Below are positions 19,322 to 62,667 of a stretch of 64,000 bases of DNA, piece by piece. Numbering within the stretch: position 1 is the first letter of the stretch; each line of letters opens with the position of its first letter. The notes below the pieces were generated by a model that did no database searches, was not told the DNA's origin, and saw nothing but the letters and a program-made list of their open reading frames with translations. The DNA lies in the NCBI RefSeq assembly GCF_004803695.1, contig NZ_CP039393.1:2666001-2730000 (forward strand). The letters run 5' to 3'. The DNA comes from Muribaculum gordoncarteri (GTDB lineage: Bacteria; Bacteroidota; Bacteroidia; Bacteroidales; Muribaculaceae). Both the position numbers and the translations under genes were made by a program.

Positions 19322-21052
19322 ATGAATATACTTGAATTGAGCGAACAAGAGATAGTGCGCCGAGGAAGTCTTGACGAAATGCGTCGTATGGGCATAGACC
19401 CCTACCCCGCAGCCCTGTACCCCACCGACGCCTATACCACCGAGATTAAAGAGACATTCAGCGACGATGCGCCTCAACGCGAGGTGTGCATAGCCGGCCG
19501 CATAATGAGCCGCCGCATAATGGGCAAAGCCTCATTCATGGAACTTCAGGACTCGAAAGGCCGCATTCAGGTCTACATAAGCCGCGACGACCTCTGTCCC
19601 GGCGAAGACAAGGAGCTATACAATGTAGTGTTCAAGAAACTCCTCGACATAGGCGACTTTGTGGGAGTGAAAGGCTACGTGTTCCGCACTCAGACCGGCG
19701 AAATTTCGGTTCACGCCCGCGAGCTCACGGTGCTTAGCAAATCACTGCGTCCGCTCCCCATCGTCAAGGTCAAGGACGGCGTTACCTACGATGCATTCGA
19801 CGATCCCGAGCTGCGTTATCGCCGCCGCTATGTCGACCTCGTTGTCAACGATCAAGTAAAGGACATATTCATCAAGCGCACCAAAGTGTTCAACTCGATG
19901 CGCAACTACTTCAACGACCACGGTTACATGGAGGTGGAAACACCCATCCTGCAGTCGATACCCGGCGGTGCAGCCGCACGCCCCTTCATCACCCACCACA
20001 ATGCGCTCGACATTCCCCTCTATCTCCGCATTGCCGACGAGCTTTACCTGAAGCGCCTCATCGTAGGTGGCTTTGAAGGTGTCTACGAGTTCTCAAAGAA
20101 CTTCCGTAACGAGGGTATGGACCGCACCCACAACCCCGAGTTCACCTGTATGGAAATCTACGTTGCCTACAAGGACTACAACTGGATGATGGACTTCACC
20201 GAAAAGATGCTTGAAAAGATATGCCTCGATGTCAACGGCACGACCGAAGTCAAGGTTGGCGACAACACTATCAGCTTCAAGGCTCCCTTCAAGCGCATAA
20301 CGATGATTGACGCGATAAAGGAGCACACCGGCATCGACATCGCCGGCATGGACGAAGAGCAATTGCGCGAAGTGTGCCGCAAGCTCGACATCGAAGCCGA
20401 CGAAACCATGGGCAAGGGCAAGCTCATCGACGAGATATTCGGCGAAAAATGCGAAGGCAACTACATTCAGCCCACGTTCATTATCGACTATCCCATCGAA
20501 ATGTCGCCCCTCACCAAGCGTCACCGCAACAATCCCGAGCTCACCGAGCGCTTCGAGCTTATGGTCAACGGAAAGGAACTTGCCAACGCATATTCCGAGC
20601 TTAACGACCCCATCGACCAGTATGAGCGCTTTGTAGAGCAGATGCGTCTTGCCGAAAAGGGCGACGACGAAGCAATGATAATCGACAAGGACTTCATCCG
20701 CGCTCTTGAGTACGGAATGCCTCCCACTTCAGGCATGGGAATCGGCATGGACCGACTCGTGATGCTGATGACCGGCCAGACCACCATTCAGGAGGTGCTG
20801 CTCTTCCCGCAGATGCGTCCCGAAAAAGTCCAGCCCCGCGACAAGGAAGAGGCCTACACCGCAATAGGAGTACCCGCCGAATGGGTTGCACCGCTTCAGA
20901 AAGCCGGCATAATGACCGTGAGCCAGCTCGCAGGAGCCAATCCCGGCAAGATATTCCAGGATCTATGCGGCATTAACAAGAAATTTAAACTCGAACTTAA
21001 AAATCCGACACAGGACGACATCAAGTCATGGATTGCAGCAGTCGAACAGTAG
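19322..21052 (+). CDS. lysS: Lysyl-tRNA synthetase, class II
   Basis: 576 residues from [10 protein letters not shown]. An N-terminal OB-fold anticodon-binding domain (about 50-150) is followed by the class II catalytic core with motif 2 ([19 protein letters not shown]) and motif 3 ([14 protein letters not shown]). A C-terminal extension of about 75 residues ([20 protein letters not shown] onward) looks like a helix-hairpin-helix tail, as in other Bacteroidota LysS. It charges tRNA-Lys. The start codon at 19322 was chosen because a -7 box at 19287-19294 overlaps the alternative start. The stop overlaps gpsA by 25 bp. Confidence 0.96.
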
Positions 21053-30060: not shown

Positions 30061-33000
30061 ATGATGAGATTACATCATTTTTGCATATCTTGTAAAGTGA
30101 CGCTGGTTTTTGCCGTCGCCTTCTTTACTATATTTACTGCATCGGCAGCCAACAACATGTCACAAGGATTTGCCGATGACTACAACACCCGCTACATAAC
30201 CATCCATGAAGGACTGCCCCACAACTTCGTCGACGACATTCACCGCGACAGCAAGGGCTTCATCTGGATGGCTCTCAACGGAGGCGGAGTGGCGCGTTAC
30301 GACGGACATGACTTTGTGACATTCGGCCCCTCCTCATCTTTAAGAAAGATAAAGAGCATCTTCGCAACAACGCTGAGCGAGGACAAATTCAACCGACTGT
30401 GGACCGTGACCGACCGAGGCCTCGACATAATAGATATGGAGAAACTCTCCACTCTTGCCGAAGACGACCCTATTTTTGCGAAGCTTGAGCAAGGCGACAA
30501 CCCCATCGACATATCGAAGATTGATTTCGCCACAAGCGACAAAAACGGTAACATGTGGCTCCATGCCGACACCATAATAGCCAAAGTGTCGTTTAACGAC
30601 GACGGCTCGATCGACCGCATAGCCACTTTGACTCACGACCCGCTTAACGTGTCGGTCCTTAAAATCAAGGACATAGAGGGCAACGGCACTCTGTGGACCT
30701 CAATCAACGGCGAGATAATGAACATCGAGGACCAAGGCGCTACAATTACCCTGAAGCCGGTAGCCGACTGCCTGAAGCTCGATCCTCACACCTATGTGAG
30801 CGACTTCATCGCCAAGGGTGACAATGTGTGGATTTCCACCGACCTCGGACTCTATCGTTATGACCCGAGCGCCAATATGGTAAAGCGTTATGTCTACAAC
30901 CCCGCCGACCCTAAATCTCTTTCCCAGAACTTCATAACCGACCTCGACATAACAGCCGACAAGCGACTGATAGCCTCGACTCTGAGGGGTATCAACATCT
31001 ACAACCCAATCAATGACAACTTTGAGCGCGTAGGCGATATGCCTCAGTCCGATCCCAGGGCAGTGTTCAACAACAACTTCATCAACTGCGTGGAGGTCGA
31101 CAGCGACCGAATATGGTTTGGCACCGAAGGAGGCGGCCTGAACAAGTTTGTTCCGCGCAACATCTACATCACCGACATATTCCATGACCCCAACCGCACA
31201 TCGTCACTCTCCGACAATCCCGTCAACTCAATATATGAGGATGTCGACGGCACAGTGTGGATTGGAACCGTAGAGGGTGGATTGAACCGCGCTCACAGCG
31301 ACATGAAGAGCTTTGACCACTTCACGGCCGAAAACGGGGCGATAACCCACAATTCGGTCAGCGCGATAACGGCCGACCGTGACGGCCGCTTATGGGTAGG
31401 CACGTGGGGAGGCGGTCTGAATGTAATCGACCGCAAGAATCCGTCACATCGCATCGAAACCATCAATGCCACCGACGACGGGAGCCTTCCCATAGGCTAT
31501 ATCGGAGCATTGGCCTACGACTCAATCAACAACGGAATATGGATAGGCTCAAACTTAGGATTATATTTCCGTGACCTCAACACAGGCCGCATAACCGAGC
31601 CGTTCAAAGGGGCGGCCGACGGCGTGCCCGGCACAATAGGCACCGCAATCGACAAAAAGGGGCACCTGTGGGTGGGATCGCTTACCGGCGTTTATGACAT
31701 CGTACTCAACGAGCGCAAGCCCGACGGCACATTCACCTACCGTCACATCAGCCACAAGCTTAACGACCCCAAGTCGAAAACCGCCGATAAGATAAGCTCG
31801 ATCTACATGTCATCCGACGGCTCGATGTGGTTCGGAACCAATGGAAACGGCGTATATCACCGCGTCACCGACGAAAACGGTGAAAAGTTCATAAACTACA
31901 CCACCGACGAGGGAATGCCCAGCGACATTGTCAACGGAATCCTTGAGGACAACGACGGTTATATGTGGATAAGCACCGCCAACGGACTCGCACGACTGAA
32001 CCCCGACGACGGCACGTTCATCAACTACGACCGAACCGACGGACTCGCCAACGACCAGTTTTACTGGAATGCATCCTACCGGCTCAGCGACGGACGGCTG
32101 CTCTTCGGCACAGTCGACGGCCTGATAAAGCTCGACGGTGTGACCAAGAAATCCAAGGAGCTCCACTATCCCGTGTACTTCACGTCACTCTCCGTAGCCA
32201 ACGAACCGGTGCATGCCGGCAGCGACATAACGCCCCTCGACATATCGTCGACCAAGCACATAACAATCCATGAGCGCGACAAGTCGTTCACTGTAGGATT
32301 CAGCGCGCTCGACTACGACCGTGACAATGCCGGACACTACAGCTACCGCCTTGTGGGATTTGACGACAAGTGGATAACCCTGCCTGTCGACCGCCGATAT
32401 GTGACCTACACCAATCTCGAACCCGGAGTCTACAAGCTGCAGGTGCGTTACGTGCCCGAGGGCTCGCAACCCGACGAATCGGAGATTTCGCAGCTCGTCA
32501 TAACGGTAAAGCCCTACTTCTACCGCACCCCGTGGTTCATGATGATAATGATATTGCTCGTGGGCGCATCGGCATGGCTCTTCCACTATTACCGCGTAAA
32601 GTCACTCACCAACCAGCGCACCCTGCTGCAGGCTTCGGTTGAAGAGCGCACATCCGAGATAAGGCAACAGAAGCAGCTCCTCGAGGCTCGCGCCGTGGCA
32701 CTCTCGGAGCAAAACGACATGCTCAAGCGCAACAATGAGGAGATAACCGAGCAGAAGACCCAGCTCATCGACATGTCACGCCGAGTGCAGGACCTCGCAA
32801 TGGACCGCATATCATTCTTCACCAACATAACCCACGAGTTCCGCACTCCCATCACCCTTATCATAGGCCCCACACAGCGTGCGCTGAAGCTCAGCTACAA
32901 TCCCCAGGTAATCGAGCAGCTCAACTATGTGGAACGTAACGCCCGATACCTGCTCAACCTCGTGAACCAGCTCATGGACTTCCGCAAGCTCGAGTCGGGC

Positions 33001-52502: not shown

Positions 52503-54512
52503 ATGAACATCAAACATCTTTCAATGGGAGCCGTGGCGGTAGCCTTATCCGTGGCAGCCTCGGCACAGAAGCCCATGACAGCCCCTCAAGGCGGCAAGCA
52601 GATCAGCGACGAGCTGATTGGTATCTTCTTTGAGGACATCAGCTACTCGGCCGATGGCGGTTTGAACGCCAACCTGGTTCAGAACGGCTCTTTCGAGTAC
52701 AGCCCAATGGTTCGCGACGGATGGGGACCCGGCACCTCTTGGCGCTTCCTCCGTCCCGGTCACTCAGCCGGCTACATCGTTGACGGTCATCAGAACCCCA
52801 TCCATGCCAACAATCCCACCTATATGCGCATCTATGCCGAGCGCATCGGTCACTACGAAGATTACGACGGATGGACCGGCGTGGGCCTGATGAACAACGG
52901 CTTCAACGGCATGAACGTGAAGGCCGGTGAAAAGTATGACTTCAGCATCTTCATGCGCAATGTCAGCGGCAAGGCAAAGCCCGTGCGCATCGTATTGGCA
53001 ACCCCCGGCCGCAAGCCCAAGGTACTCGCCGAAACCACCATCAATGTATATGACAAGGAGTGGCAGAAGTACACTGCCGTACTCACTCCCTCGGAGAACT
53101 GCCCCGATGCCGACCTGCAGATACTCATGCTTGAGAAAGGCGAGTTGGACATCGACATGGTTAGCCTCGTACCCCAGGACACCTACCACGGACATGGCAT
53201 ACGCAAGGATTTGGCCGAAGCTTTGGAAGGCCTGAATCCCCGCTTCATGCGCTTCCCCGGCGGTTGTGTGGTTCATGGCGGTGGCGACGGATTCTGGGAC
53301 ACCTATCGTTGGAAGACCACCGTCGGACCCAAGGAAACCCGCAAGTCACTCAAGAACACTTGGGGCTACAACCAGAGCATGGACATCGGTTACTTCGAGT
53401 ATTTCCAGCTATGTGAGGACATGGGCATGCAGCCCCTTCCCATTCTGCCGTGCGGTGTAAGCTGTCAGGGCGTAAACGGTGGCTGGGGCATGAAGAACCA
53501 GGCCCAGGAAGTCGTTGCCATGGAGGATATGGACGAGTGGGTACAGGATGCCCTTGACCTCATCGAGTGGGCCAACGGCGATGTCAACACCAAGTGGGGT
53601 GCCGTTCGTGCCGCTGCAGGCCATCCCGAACCCTTCAACCTGAAGTATCTCGGCATCGGTAACGAAGAGAAAATCACCCCCGAATTTGCCGAGCGCTTCA
53701 AGTATATGTACAACAAGATAATGGAGAAGCATCCCGAAATTGTAATCGTGGGTACTGCCGGTCCCGGCTCACATCCCGGAAATCCCGACTACGAGAACTC
53801 TTGGAAGCTGGCTGAAGAAATCGGTCTTCCCATCATCGACGAGCACTACTACGATCCCCGTCAGCAGTACATCGATTCACGCCAGTACGACAGCGACTTC
53901 TACAAGGACAAGAAGTGCAAGGTATATCTCGGCGAATACAGCGTAAAGGACCACAGCCACGGCGAGAAGAACCAGTGGGGCGACGCCCTTGCCGAAGCCA
54001 TCTACCTGCTGCATGTAGAGCGCAACGCCGACAAGGTAGTGATGACCTCCTACGCACCTCTGTTTGCCTACAAGCACAACACCAACTGGAACCCCAACCT
54101 GATTTACTTCGACAACGAGCGTCCCTTCCTCACCTGCAGCTACTACGTACAGCAGATGTTCGGACAGTCGAGCGGTCAGTACTTCTACGGCGACTGCGTG
54201 AAGTTTGCCGATGGCGACGACGAGTTCAAGAACCATCTCTTGGGACAGTCGGTGATTCTGAATGTCAACAAGCGCGAGCTCTATGTCAAGTTGGCCAACA
54301 TGACCGATGCGCCCAAGTCGGTAAATATCGACCTGTCACGCTTCTCAGTTAAGCCCAACGCCGTCAAGACAATCCTGAGCGGCAACTTGGACGACGAGAA
54401 CAACTACGACAAGCACCCCGTCAGCCCTGTAAAGGAAGATGTGAAGGTAAGCAAGAAAATGAACGTGGAAGTTCCCGCCCACAGCCTCATAATGTACACC
54501 ATCAAGCTGTAA
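52503..54512 (+). CDS. GH51 alpha-L-arabinofuranosidase with CBM-like domain, stand-alone
   Basis: 669 residues, signal peptide about 1-21 (AASAQKP). ELIGIFFEDISYSADGGLNANLVQNGSFEY marks the longer GH51 type; a jelly-roll domain (about 70-230), acid/base Glu in LGIGNEEKITPEF and nucleophile Glu in KVYLGEYSVKDHS follow. Arabinose-releasing enzyme, probably periplasmic. It is monocistronic (-7 box at 52448-52455, terminator at 54531-54565). It sits between an EcsC-like gene and a decayed copy of that gene's 3' end, suggesting insertion. By eye it uses TTG for Leu more than the PUL genes do, a weak hint of separate origin. Confidence 0.92.
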   Translation: MNIKHLSMGAVAVALSVAASAQKPMTAPQGGKQISDELIGIFFEDISYSADGGLNANLVQNGSFEYSPMVRDGWGPGTSWRFLRPGHSAGYIVDGHQNPIHANNPTYMRIYAERIGHYEDYDGWTGVGLMNNGFNGMNVKAGEKYDFSIFMRNVSGKAKPVRIVLATPGRKPKVLAETTINVYDKEWQKYTAVLTPSENCPDADLQILMLEKGELDIDMVSLVPQDTYHGHGIRKDLAEALEGLNPRFMRFPGGCVVHGGGDGFWDTYRWKTTVGPKETRKSLKNTWGYNQSMDIGYFEYFQLCEDMGMQPLPILPCGVSCQGVNGGWGMKNQAQEVVAMEDMDEWVQDALDLIEWANGDVNTKWGAVRAAAGHPEPFNLKYLGIGNEEKITPEFAERFKYMYNKIMEKHPEIVIVGTAGPGSHPGNPDYENSWKLAEEIGLPIIDEHYYDPRQQYIDSRQYDSDFYKDKKCKVYLGEYSVKDHSHGEKNQWGDALAEAIYLLHVERNADKVVMTSYAPLFAYKHNTNWNPNLIYFDNERPFLTCSYYVQQMFGQSSGQYFYGDCVKFADGDDEFKNHLLGQSVILNVNKRELYVKLANMTDAPKSVNIDLSRFSVKPNAVKTILSGNLDDENNYDKHPVSPVKEDVKVSKKMNVEVPAHSLIMYTIKL

Positions 54513-54870: not shown

Positions 54871-54995
54871 ATAGACAGCGTACCCACCCTACAACCCCTG
54901 CGGTTGCACTCCACGCACCCACATATCCCCACGCTTTCGCCCCGCGCAGCGCAGGGCGCACACCACACGCCAGCAGACCCCCGCGTTAGCGTAGA

Positions 54996-55109
54996 GCTGC
55001 GTTAGCTGCTCAATAATGTTAGGCCCGCGCAAGGTCGCCGTTAGGCGTCCGCAGCACGGGTATAAAAAAGCCATAAAAAAGAAAGAGGGCTGCGTTAGCT
55101 GCCCAATAA
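54996..55109 (+). repeat. Pair of 21-nt direct repeats
   Basis: 54996-55016 and 55089-55109 share 20 of 21 bases (core GCTGCGTTAGCTGC, then CAATAA). They lie in a GC-rich gene-free stretch with several short dyads (for example GCGCAGCGC-type). No ORF of note. Confidence 0.7.
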
Positions 55110-55149
55110 AACGCTCCACCCAATAACACCCAATTTAGCACTCACGTAT

Positions 55150-55205
55150 ATGCCGTCAGGCATTACATGTGTGAAACCGCGGGGAGCCCATAGGCCCAAC
55201 CCATG
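55150..55205. repeat. Dispersed hairpin repeat, copy B (diverged)
   Basis: Hairpin 1 ATGCC-gtca-GGCAT (55150-55163), spacer TACATGTGTGAA, then CCGCGGG (55177-55183) with ACCCATG (55199-55205) as the weaker second hairpin. The GGCATTACATGT block is shared with copy C. Confidence 0.65.
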
Positions 55206-55380: not shown

Positions 55381-55401
55381 ATCTCTTACCAAGAGATACT
55401 T
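55381..55401 (+). repeat. Left inverted-repeat arm of the inverton
   Basis: 21 bp, palindromic core ATCTCTTACCAAGAGAT plus ACTT; exact reverse complement of 55551-55571. Identity stops abruptly at both ends. Confidence 0.9.
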
Positions 55402-55532
55402 TAGCTCCTCACTTGATTATATTCCAATAAATTAAGGATGTACAAAATCAACAATTTGATAAAACAGTATTAAAATCGAAAAATTTATTTATAATTTTTT
55501 TGGTGAAAATGTATTGTTTTCAAAAAAATAAC

Positions 55533-55540
55533 TATCTTTG
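55533..55540 (+). promoter_or_regulatory. -7 promoter box inside the inverton
   Basis: TATCTTTG followed by CGGC, a perfect TAnnTTTG match reading towards SusC 3; no strong TTTG at -33 (TATTG lies 16 bp upstream). Confidence 0.75.
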
Positions 55541-55550
55541 CGGCAGATTT

Positions 55551-55571
55551 AAGTATCTCTTGGTAAGAGAT
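55551..55571 (-). repeat. Right inverted-repeat arm of the inverton
   Basis: 21 bp, AAGT plus palindromic core ATCTCTTGGTAAGAGAT; exact reverse complement of 55381-55401. It would lie at the very 5' end of the transcript in the ON state. Confidence 0.9.
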
Positions 55572-55677
55572 GCAAAAATTGATTTGACGATATTTAAGAG
55601 TTAACAGGCAATCGGAACTATCCGAAACAGGTTTTCGACAAGCATTTAAACGCTCTTGTCGTGTAAGGAAACGTACT

Positions 55678-55743
55678 ATGAATACTATTTCTAAGGTGAA
55701 AAAGATTGTAAAGGGGATTGTAAAATTTACAAGAAGCATTTAG
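55678..55743 (+). CDS. Possible 21-residue basic leader peptide upstream of SusC 3
   Basis: ATG at 55678 opens MNTISKVKKIVKGIVKFTRS followed by I and a TAG at 55741, 26 bp before the SusC start. It is strongly basic and amphipathic, in the roughly 220-nt leader downstream of the invertible promoter. It may be a regulatory leader ORF, or chance; no homologue is known to me. Confidence 0.35.
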   Translation: MNTISKVKKIVKGIVKFTRSI

Positions 55744-55769
55744 TTAAATATAGTAATTATTAATTGCCA

Positions 55770-58700
55770 ATGAAAAAACATCGATTCATTACGTGGCTGA
55801 CATTCCTCCTTGTTGGAATTGTAAGCCTTAGTGCGCAACAGTACTCTCTAAAGGGAGAAGTGCTGGACGAACTTGGGGACCCTCTGATAGGTGCTACCGT
55901 GAAAGTCAAGAGTGATCCTAATAATGGTGTTATGACCGACATCAACGGTCAGTTTGCCTTAAACGTGTCAAAAGGCGATGTCCTGCAGGTATCCTACATC
56001 GGATATGTCACTGTTGAACTGCCTATTACTGACCAAAACAACATCAAGATAGAGATGAAAGAGGACTCTCAGATTCTCGACGAGGTCGTTGTAGTTGGTT
56101 ACGGCACAATGCGTAAGAAGGACCTTACAGGTTCTGTTGTGCAAATCAATCCTGAAAAAATTGCCGACACCAATCCCGGTTCGGTGCAAGACCTTCTTAG
56201 AGGTACTGCCGGTCTGCAGATTGGTTACGACGCATCGGCCAAGGGTCAGAGCGCTTCAATCCAGTTGCGCGGACAGAACTCCCTCGGTACCAATGCAAGC
56301 CCTATGATCGTCCTCGACGGTATGGCATTCTACGGCGAGCTTTCTGAAATCAATCCCGACGACATCGCTCAGATCGATGTTCTCAAGGATGCCTCTTCAG
56401 CCGCCATCTACGGTGCCAAGGCTGCCGCCGGTGTAATCATCATCACCACCAAGAAAGGTAAGGAAGGAAAGCCCGTGATCAACGTGAGCGCCAACCTCGC
56501 CGTAAACACCAAGTCGGCCTATCGCGACTTCTTCGACCGCACAAACTGGGAAACCTACCGTGAGGACTGGTACAAGATGTACTACACCTACGGAATCGGC
56601 GAAGACGGCCTCTACGGCTACTACAATGCACGCGACACCAAGGCCGAAGGCAAGCCCATCCTATATCCCAAAGGCTACTTCGACAATCCCTCTCGCCTGA
56701 GCGATGCCGAGCAATCAGCTTGGATGACCAACATCGGCGCAGCCGGTTTCGGTGCTGCTGCAGGTGAATCGGCATTGGAGCTCTACGCCCGCCGTATGTC
56801 TATGGACAACGCTCCCTTGATGATGTCCAACTTCCTCGCAGGCAACTACTACGACTGGAACGACGCCGTGTTCCGCACCGGTCTTAACCAGGACTACAAT
56901 GCAAGCATCTCGGGTGCTTCGGAGCGCGTCAACTACTACATGTCTATCGGTTACATGAAAAATGAAGGTGTTGTGCGTGGTAACGACTACGACGCTTTCC
57001 GCGCAAGCTTGAAGTTGCACACTCAGGTTACCGACTGGCTCGAAGTAGGTGCACAGGTTAACTTCCAGAACCGTTCCGACGGCGACATGCAGGTATCGCT
57101 CGGCTCCAACTACTGGGACGCCAACATGCTCCGCAACTCTCCCTACGCAGGCATGTACACCGAGGACGGTAGCTACAACCAGTATCCTATGACAGGTTTT
57201 GCTGCCAACGGTGCCGGTTACAACTACTTCTTCGACAATCAGTACTACGACCTCGACCGCGGTTACACCGTGTTGAACTCAATCTTCAACGTGAAGGTCA
57301 ACCTTCCCCTTGGATTCTCCTATCAGTTCAACATCACCCCGCGCATGCAGTGGTACCACGACTACTATCACATGTCGGCCGACCTCCCCGGAGCATCGCC
57401 CGCCGACCGAGGTGTTAACCGTAGCAACTCCAAGAACTTCGACTGGAACCTAAACAACACCCTTATCTGGGACCGCACAATCGCCGACATCCACCGCTTT
57501 ACTGTAACTCTCGTTCAGGAAGCTGAGGACCACAAGTACTGGAGCGACAACATCTACGCCCGCAACATCACGCCCACCGATGTGCTCGGATTCCACTACA
57601 CTGCCGGCGGCAACAAGGAACAAAGCTCCTTCAGCACCTACGACAGCCACTACACCGCAGCATCTTATCTCGGTCGCGTATTCTACAGCTACGACAACCG
57701 CTACATGATCACCGGTACATTCCGTCGCGACGGTTACTCGGGATTCGGTGCCAACCATCCTTGGGGTAACTTCGGTTCGGTTGGTCTTGGTTGGAACTTC
57801 TCCGAGGAAAAATTCATGGAGAATACCCGCGACTGGCTCGACAATGCCAAGCTGCGCCTCTCTTGGGGTACCAACGGTAACCGCGAGTTTGGCGATGTCT
57901 ACAAGACCCTTGCCAACCTTACTCTCGGAAGCCCCATGGCCTACCTCGACAAGAGCGGAAAGCCCGTCATCGTCAACACCCTTTCTATGAGCCGACTCGG
58001 TGCTCCCGACCTCGTTTGGGAAAAGACTCACGCCTACAATGTCGGTCTTGACTTCTCGATTCTGAACTACCGACTCACCGGTAGCCTCGACTTCTACCAC
58101 AAGATCACCAAGGACATGATCATGTCGCAGCGTCTGCCCTCGTTCACCGGATTCAGCTCTATCGCTGCCAACCTCGGTGAAGTGCAGAACACCGGTTTTG
58201 AGTTCTCGCTCAACTCGACCAACATCAAGAACCGCGACTTAGTGTGGAACACCTCTGTAGGCTTCTCCTACAACAAGAACCGCATCAAGCACCTCTACTA
58301 CGACTACGACGAGAACGGTGTTGAGCGCGACGACACTTCCAACGGCTGGTACATCAACCATCCTATCGGTGAAATCTGGTACTACGAAACCGACGGCGTT
58401 TGGCAGAACACTCCCGAGGACATCGCTGCCGCCGCACTCGTAGGTCAGGTACCCGGTGATATCAAGGTTAAGAACAACTACACCGACGACGACAAGATCC
58501 TCGACGACGGAACCCGCATCCCCGTTTACAACGACAACGATAAGGTTTACCTCGGCACTACCGCTCCTCCCATCTACTGGAACATGCGCAACGAGTTCAC
58601 CCTCTGGAACGACCTTACAATCTCCTTCTCGCTCTACTCCTACATGGGCCACAAGAGCCTTGCAGGATACTGGCTCAACAGCGACAACGGAGGTTCGGTT

Positions 58701-61284: not shown

Positions 61285-62667
61285 TTCTAGTGGTCGGAAG
61301 AGGTTTGTAACGATAGTATTTTGATTTTTAGATTATTGACCTCTGATTTCATTGATTTTACTTGAGCCTCAAGTCTTTTTATCGTTTCTGTCTGATATCT
61401 AATCAATTCTGTCATGATGGCCTGTTTGGCTATGCGTGGCCCCATATTATGGGCAATGGAATATATTTTAACCAGCAGGGCGACAATCAGGGTCATATAC
61501 AGCATTACCTGTATTCCGTGTACATTTGTTGATATAAAATGTGAAAAGCTCAGATCCTGTTTGAGAAATTTAAAGAATACCTCAATATCCCAGCGCCTTC
61601 GGTAATATTGGACAATTTCGATGGCATCTTTCTCAAAGTTATTGGTAATCAAGACCATCTCGTCATCATAGTGTCGGGCGTGGCGTCTGGTGTTTCGTGG
61701 AGATTCCGGACGCGGTGTCTTGAATCTAACCCGTATAATCCTGTAAAGGCATGAGGTATCCCATTTGTCGGATTGTTTGGCTCTGAGATAACCCTTGTCA
61801 TCCGCGGTCACTACCACTTCATTGTCTGCCAGCACAGAGTCTTCGGGCAACATCGTTTCTACGGGTTGTGTGCAGCGGTTTAGGTTGAGCCTCCCGACGA
61901 AGAAGGCCCGGTTCTGTTTTGTCAGTTTCGCGATACATTTGAAATCATCCACATCCTTCAAGCCTCTGTCAAAGACATATCCATTCGACATCCCCGCCCT
62001 TTTACGCAGACATTGTGCCACAGTCTTGCTTATCGGGGCATTGTCGGCAGAATATGTCCTTTCTGTAAAGACATTGGCCGCCACAACGTTGAGTCCGTTA
62101 TAAGCCATGGTGTACTTGAGTTGTCTCCGGTCTGAAGATGTATTTTTTGTCATGCCGGTAGAGAAACCCTCCACAAGTTTGTTTGAGGTCTCGGCGACCA
62201 TGGTGCTGTCAACGCGTATTATTTGCATGTCATCCAGTACAGCATCGGGTACATACTTAAGATATTTGGAGCATATCAGTGCATATGCCTCTTTGAAAAA
62301 ATCTATATTTATCCTGGTCAGCCGCTCGCTGAAAGATGAATGAACCACCACTGTGCGCTTGCTGTCAGAGGTGCCATTTGTGTCCGTCATCAGCGGGATG
62401 CCATTTTTTATCGATATAATCCTTTGACTGACCTGAGATGAAGACAGCATTGCAAATATGCAGTCGTCCATCATGTCTACTCCACGTAATTTTTTTGCTT
62501 TGTAATCGACCTTTGTTTTGGCCGCTATCTCTGAGATTTTATCGTATGGGAGGTTTTTTATCACCCCGATGGCTGTTACATTATCTTTTGGGTGCTGTGT
62601 AGTCATATCTGTTTTTTTGATATAACAACCAGGCTCGACTTTTTGCTGTGTCTTCCGACCACTAGAA
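61285..62667 (-). mobile_element. IS4-family insertion sequence, 1383 bp
   Basis: Perfect 17-bp terminal inverted repeats: TTCTAGTGGTCGGAAGA at 61285-61301 and its complement at 62651-62667. Flanked by a 9-bp direct repeat CCCTTGCGG (61276-61284 and 62668-62676), the target duplication. One transposase gene on the minus strand fills the element. The perfect ends and intact gene suggest recent insertion. Confidence 0.93.
61287..62606 (-). CDS. IS4-family transposase
   Basis: 439 residues, apparently intact. DDE catalytic triad: first Asp in IIRVDSTMVAETSN, second Asp in YVFDRGLKDVDDF, Glu in the YRRRWDIEVFFKFLKQ block, which is the Y-(2)-R-(3)-E-(6)-K signature of IS4. A coiled C-terminal tail (ETIKRLEAQVKSMKSEVNNL) follows. 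The last five codons, including the TAG stop, lie inside the terminal inverted repeat, so the C-terminus SSDH is encoded by the IS end itself. Confidence 0.95.
   Translation of the reverse strand: MTTQHPKDNVTAIGVIKNLPYDKISEIAAKTKVDYKAKKLRGVDMMDDCIFAMLSSSQVSQRIISIKNGIPLMTDTNGTSDSKRTVVVHSSFSERLTRINIDFFKEAYALICSKYLKYVPDAVLDDMQIIRVDSTMVAETSNKLVEGFSTGMTKNTSSDRRQLKYTMAYNGLNVVAANVFTERTYSADNAPISKTVAQCLRKRAGMSNGYVFDRGLKDVDDFKCIAKLTKQNRAFFVGRLNLNRCTQPVETMLPEDSVLADNEVVVTADDKGYLRAKQSDKWDTSCLYRIIRVRFKTPRPESPRNTRRHARHYDDEMVLITNNFEKDAIEIVQYYRRRWDIEVFFKFLKQDLSFSHFISTNVHGIQVMLYMTLIVALLVKIYSIAHNMGPRIAKQAIMTELIRYQTETIKRLEAQVKSMKSEVNNLKIKILSLQTSSDH

Follow-up and report, generated by a model that had tools for sequence, protein, structure and literature searches.

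The window analysed here, a 64-kb stretch of the Muribaculum gordoncarteri genome, contains two inverted repeats in front of a SusC/SusD gene pair, and it raises the question of whether the DNA between them is a promoter that can be inverted and, if so, by which enzyme. The initial annotation had described perfect 21-bp inverted repeats with an internal palindrome, 149 bp apart; rechecking of the letters confirmed this, with 100% complementarity between the arms (Table 1). Each arm contains a 17-bp near-palindrome, ATCTCTT-N3-AAGAGAT, which reads ATCTCTT-ACC-AAGAGAT in the left arm and as its reverse complement in the right arm. The promoter said to lie inside the segment and to face SusC was found as well, in the form of the box TATCTTTG, and its -33 TTTG box is weak at best. 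Two marks of a Bacteroidales inverton are hence present, namely inverted repeats around a short intergenic segment and an interior promoter facing a gene. Within the window, the two arms were the only exact matches to the core; with up to three mismatches the core pattern occurred five times, against a mean of 2.15 in shuffled sequences, and five or more in 7 of 100 shuffles. A second inverted repeat in the window (I2, 76%) was set aside as chance.

Table 1 Features of the window element (positions in the window) and the eight site pairs of the same genome (outer ends on contig C1) with their flanking genes.
Feature	Position	Strand	Remark
Left arm	55381..55401	+	recombination core ATCTC-TTACCAA-GAGAT at 55381-55397
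Inter-arm segment, 149 bp	55402..55550	.	would be inverted; inversion of the same site class seen in relatives
Promoter box TATCTTTG, -7 type TANNTTTG	55533..55540	+	39 bp from the outer edge of the right arm
Right arm	55551..55571	+	core at 55555-55571; expected to form a hairpin close to the 5' end of the ON transcript
Putative SusC mRNA leader	55572..55769	+	no terminator-like sites (0)
Leader ORF, 21 codons	55678..55743	+	may be chance
SusC-type TonB-dependent receptor, 1086 aa	55770..59030	+	ATG at 55770; Pfam
SusD-type lipoprotein, 672 aa	59079..61097	+	Pfam
Site pair	31038-31221 (C1)		left: GH43 gene; right: 944-aa protein without Pfam match and OmpA-like porin
Site pair	288444-288780 (C1)		right: DUF3575 and DUF3868 genes; left: epimerase and sub-threshold glycosyltransferase matches
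Site pair	1013207-1013411 (C1)		left: NusG-domain gene; right: lipoate ligase and aminomethyltransferase genes
Site pair	1557983-1558195 (C1)		M13 peptidase gene and bPH_2 gene
Site pair	1642906-1643094 (C1)		right: GH43/GH35 protein
Site pair (L021 7086-7449)	2514085-2514448 (C1)		two divergent SusC-type genes; single promoter box
Site pair (window element)	2721381-2721571 (C1)		SusC/SusD
Site pair (L022 7298-7723)	2987297-2987722 (C1)		two divergent DUF3575 genes, with a DUF3868 gene after the right one; single promoter box

The surroundings of the element were less bare than the annotated absence of an adjacent regulator or hydrolase suggested. Neither type of gene is found from the element to the end of SusD. 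However, an arabinofuranosidase gene on the same strand (52503-54512) ends 868 bp upstream of the element, and at 28-49 kb the window holds a glycan-use cluster with a hybrid two-component regulator, two SusC/SusD pairs and GH43s, so the statement on hydrolases is only partly right. The upstream stretch 54930-55190 is a dispersed repeat with more than 20 other matches in the genome (71-100% identity over 23-273 bp). Downstream of the SusC/SusD pair, at 61287-62606, the minus strand carries a DDE transposase gene (PF01609). The small ORF in the leader (MNTISKVKKIVKGIVKFTRSI) would encode a short basic peptide.

The repeats of the window recur elsewhere in the genome (G000, 3.43 Mb). The 17-mer pattern ATCTCTTNNNAAGAGAT matched 31 places genome-wide with up to two mismatches, compared with 7 for a reversed-pattern control, and 16 of these 31 matches form eight inverted pairs of 184-426 bp, all on C1. 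The stricter pattern ATCTC-N7-GAGAT was found without mismatch at 16 places (control, 1), 14 of them in the eight pairs and 2 unpaired; two of the eight pairs each have one mutated half-site. Given the excess over the control and the eight matched pairs, the repeats of the window are not due to chance. Across the 16 sites there is little or no variation at the half-site positions, and the centre varies at six of its seven. The 7-bp centre is the same in both arms of all eight pairs and differs from pair to pair; identity within pairs is expected if recombination needs identity in the 7-bp overlap. In genomes other than this one, several elements sometimes have a centre in common, and hence the uniqueness of each centre applies to this genome alone. 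A shared invertase would require many dispersed elements with a common site motif, and the eight pairs are such a set.

In relatives, such sites lie next to genes of one tyrosine recombinase family. At four of nine site-pair loci fetched from relatives, a recombinase of this family was 34-138 bp away (G039, 34 bp; G149, 125 bp; G064, 137 bp; G138, 138 bp), and coordinates gave further distances of 41, 61, 124 and 320 bp in G082, G088, G213 and G112, respectively. As for the remaining five loci, G023 had a more distant recombinase 3.7 kb away and in four none was found. In G077 there are 11 site matches (control, 3) and three PF00589 hits; of the hits, one is a family member and the other two are presumably XerC and XerD. 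At least 30 family-member loci came from the recombinase-positive genomes (148 of 247), and 30 were examined. Inverted repeats of at least 14 nt, called de novo, were present in 15 of them and were of the CTC-N7-GAG type in 13 of these 15; at least one exact copy of ATCTC-N7-GAGAT, in some cases unpaired, was present in 13 of the 30. Among 80 named records, of which 11 had less than 400 bp of downstream sequence, an inverted repeat of at least 13 nt lay in the 900 bp downstream of the recombinase in 32 (28 of the CTC-N7-GAG type), and any such repeat lay upstream in only one.

Sites and recombinase also occur together across genomes. The 247 genomes of the family contained 538 site matches, compared with 61 for the control. 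A recombinase at E 1e-90 or better was present in 69 of 83 genomes with at least three site matches and in 50 of 164 genomes with fewer (Fisher p 1.9e-15), and when labels were shuffled within genera, none of 20,000 shuffles was as high as observed (416; mean 320, sd 18). In genus g17 (26 genomes), each genome had at most two site matches, and the recombinase was found in none at E 1e-90 and in six at E 1e-50. The link between a tyrosine recombinase and the motif was thus found in relatives both by proximity and by co-occurrence.

At the recombinase loci L178-L257 (for example L181, L198 and L238), the promoter of the downstream element is, in almost all assemblies, turned back towards the 3' end of the recombinase gene. 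Over 32 pairs at 28 recombinase loci, 25 promoters faced the recombinase, 2 faced away and 5 pairs lacked a box. Antisense transcription from a promoter in this state could restrain the recombinase. Beside another family member (G064:C21; L087 7395-7726), the repeats are of a different kind (GGGTGTATCAAAA), and site specificity may therefore have shifted.

The window's own genome has 38 PF00589 hits, two of which belong to the linked family. One encodes a protein of 410 aa (C1:984369-985598) that shares 53% identity with the G039 protein and 56% with that of G077; its domains are Arm-DNA-bind_5, Phage_int_SAM_5 and Phage_integrase. The other, of 308 aa (about C1:1122196-1123119), lacks the arm-binding domain and is possibly truncated, given that a longer alignment passes through two stop codons. 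The catalytic residues R259, K285, R358, H381 and Y390 are invariant in all nine aligned family members, and in the same nine the His of the HxxR motif is replaced by Tyr, which counts against the proposed reading. The initial annotation had proposed looking for the core beside recombinase genes. This search succeeded in relatives, but no site was found beside either of the two family members here (L079, 10 kb; L082, 14 kb); a family gene is present and is not adjacent to the sites. The 410-aa protein is the best candidate for the recombinase, though no site lies beside it.

We put the probability that the window segment is a phase-variable invertible promoter worked by this linked tyrosine recombinase family at roughly 0.88, and the broader claim that some recombinase inverts it is more probable still. 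The same class of switch could instead be flipped by another tyrosine recombinase, by XerC/XerD or, as in an Mpi-type switch, by the serine recombinase on C3, which we regard as unlikely. Such enzymes are available, since the genome also has one serine recombinase gene in two copies beside its many PF00589 hits, and the family members are far from the sites. Moreover, six genomes with at least four site matches (G089, G102, G139, G175, G240, G244) have no recombinase match at E 1e-50, and at E 1e-5 five of them gave hits of only 23-33% identity and one gave none; these genomes have the sites and lack any close relative of the candidate. On the other hand, linkage and co-occurrence point to one family, which is of the tyrosine type, and no paired site was found within about 1.5 kb of 30 PF00589 hits and the two serine copies. 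Only unpaired one-mismatch strays were present at these loci, and the serine copies had no site within about 1.5 kb. Serine invertases use a 2-bp overlap, and a centre of 7 bp, an odd number, is more in keeping with a tyrosine enzyme. The serine gene is the only one of its type and was found twice on the small contig C3 (G000:C3:5118-5525 and 19928-20335), 14.8 kb apart and with equal scores, as would be seen if a plasmid had been assembled twice.

Inversion of elements of this class was observed between G106 and G076, two genomes from the same genus as the window. When each of 39 elements was compared with all the others, at least one orthologous pair proved to be reversed; in this pair the flanks have the same orientation (410 of 495 and 398 of 500 positions identical) and the interior is turned around, with 128 of 175 positions identical when reversed compared with 92 of 175 when unreversed, and the 55 bp on the promoter side are identical. 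Elements of the same class therefore do invert, and the window's own element would be expected to flip likewise. The site cores of the two elements (L137 1305-1520, L143 1500-1714) differ in their central base, with a left core of ACT in one and AGT in the other, a difference that plain inversion does not explain. Together with recombinase linkage and co-occurrence, this reversed element supports the architecture of an invertible promoter that the initial annotation had proposed. For the window element itself, no match covering the element was found in 13 genus mates. Its orientation is known from one assembly, in which the promoter points to SusC, as would be the case in an ON state.

A relic, in which the sites and an ordinary constitutive promoter remain and inversion has ceased, would be consistent with this single known orientation and with the lack of sites beside the genome's own recombinases. 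We consider it improbable because the arms are perfect, the centres match in all eight pairs (two of which have one mutated half-site) and a full-length recombinase gene with its catalytic residues is present.

The position of the promoter relative to the arm is regular. In 50 distinct elements from this genome and its relatives, some of them overlapping or related, TANNTTTG pointed outward across one arm at 28-45 bp from its outer edge in 44, whereas 300 trials with shuffled interiors gave such a box in 1.6 elements on average and in 6 at most. Of the 45 boxes in this range, 40 start 37, 38 or 39 bp from the edge. In the window's own genome the box is present in seven of the eight elements (at 34, 38, 38, 39, 39, 41 and 42 bp) and absent from one. 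When similar interiors were grouped, 20 of 28 groups kept a box at 37-39 bp and 25 a box at 34-42 bp; shared interiors alone hence do not explain the spacing. PMC8748976 gives a -7 consensus of TANNTTTGY. By this consensus, the predicted transcription start would lie just before the site core. If transcription does begin where the promoter box predicts, the palindromic core is carried in the leader RNA, as had been claimed. The first 55 nt of the predicted transcript fold into a core hairpin of 9 pairs (-11.0 kcal/mol, z -2.66), matched by 6 of 200 shuffles; over 145 nt, folding is not unusual (z -0.75). That the repeats are paired operators or RNA hairpins regulating SusC/SusD instead of recombination sites is suggested by their nearly palindromic cores, which would fold in the ON transcript, but is very improbable in view of the asymmetric centre, kept as an inverted copy within pairs and different between pairs, the recombinase linkage and the reversed orthologue in a sister species pair.

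The mechanism we propose for the invertible promoter is as follows. A tyrosine recombinase, most likely the 410-aa protein or else its 308-aa relative, would bind the ATCTC/GAGAT half-sites of both arms, and strand exchange across the 7-bp centre TTACCAA would invert the DNA between them. With the segment as assembled, TATCTTTG would read across the right arm into SusC/SusD (ON); once inverted, the promoter would read to the left into a gene-poor stretch (OFF). Action of the candidate enzyme on this element, its flipping at present, the transcription start and the ON/OFF effect are predictions from the DNA. The seven other elements, with the same half-sites and other centres, would be flipped in trans by the same enzyme, each with its own partner arm.

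Flanking genes of the eight elements were called by Pfam, and Table 1 gives the reach from element to operon as neighbours only. They include SusC, pilus-like, capsule-regulator-like and glycosidase genes, and not all are clearly surface genes; the DUF3575/DUF3868 genes are, we assume, linked to pili, and the NusG-domain gene at 1013207 is presumably UpxY-like. Two of the eight elements lie between divergent genes of the same family (two SusC; two DUF3575) and have one promoter box, an arrangement in which inversion would select one gene or the other.

RNA polymerase reaches to about +20. With the box 37-39 bp from the edge, an initiating polymerase should therefore cover the crossover site. 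Transcription and inversion may thus be coupled, with the promoter locked at 37-39 bp, polymerase on the core and ON transcripts beginning with the hairpin; we offer this tentatively and rate it as possible but rather doubtful. If it were true, frequent transcription would protect the promoter's own site and make the ON state more stable, a bound recombinase could repress the promoter, and the private 7-bp centres would keep the switches independent under one enzyme.

The motif GTTAC-N7-GTAAC, which we take to be that of B. fragilis, usually had fewer matches than its reversed control in 119 genomes of the order. In G304, from another Bacteroidales family, three pairs of this motif (L288, L289, L290) each lie beside their own tyrosine recombinase. 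They share the 5-7-5 site plan of the window class and have other half-site letters; TANNTTTG is absent from two and at 44 bp in the third, so the tight spacing is not seen. The one G304 recombinase compared was 36% identical over 303 residues. In the open-licence literature, no paper combined the motif letters with inverted repeat and Bacteroid, and among the matches listed there was neither a description of such a Muribaculaceae system nor one joining Muribaculum or Duncaniella with inverton or invertible.

In Bacteroides, it is already established that promoters invert, that one invertase can serve several targets and that inversion occurs at SusC/SusD genes. The tyrosine invertase Tsr0667 and SusC/SusD inversions in Bacteroides fragilis were reportedly described by Nakayama-Imaohji in 2009. 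PMC4747536 lists Mpi with 13 regions, Tsr0667 with three SusC/SusD clusters and nine further regions, and Tsr19. As portrayed there, Tsr0667 resembles the present system as a tyrosine recombinase acting at several loci with SusC/SusD targets, but its SusC/SusD change is of the shufflon type with multiple inversions, whereas the window has a single small promoter segment. The fragilis system in the same paper is similar in that a single tyrosine recombinase inverts two surface-gene promoters, one local and one distant; it thus has two targets, compared with eight pairs here. Invertons associated with SusCD (PMC12632263, in part) or TonB/SusD genes (PMC11892184, in part) with nearby invertases have also been reported. 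The hCom2 inverton groups of the latter likewise combine TANNTTTG-type promoters near TonB receptor/SusD genes with nearby invertase genes, which are so oriented that the promoter cannot drive them. They are computational and from other strains, and the ATCTC-N7-GAGAT motif is absent from the portion of that text seen. Set beside these systems by description, the window element has its own site motif and recombinase family within the known Bacteroidales switches. It provides a defined site motif tied to a recombinase family, probably in Muribaculaceae, points to eight loci in one genome that a single enzyme should switch, and has a tight promoter-to-site spacing that makes transcriptional control of inversion testable.
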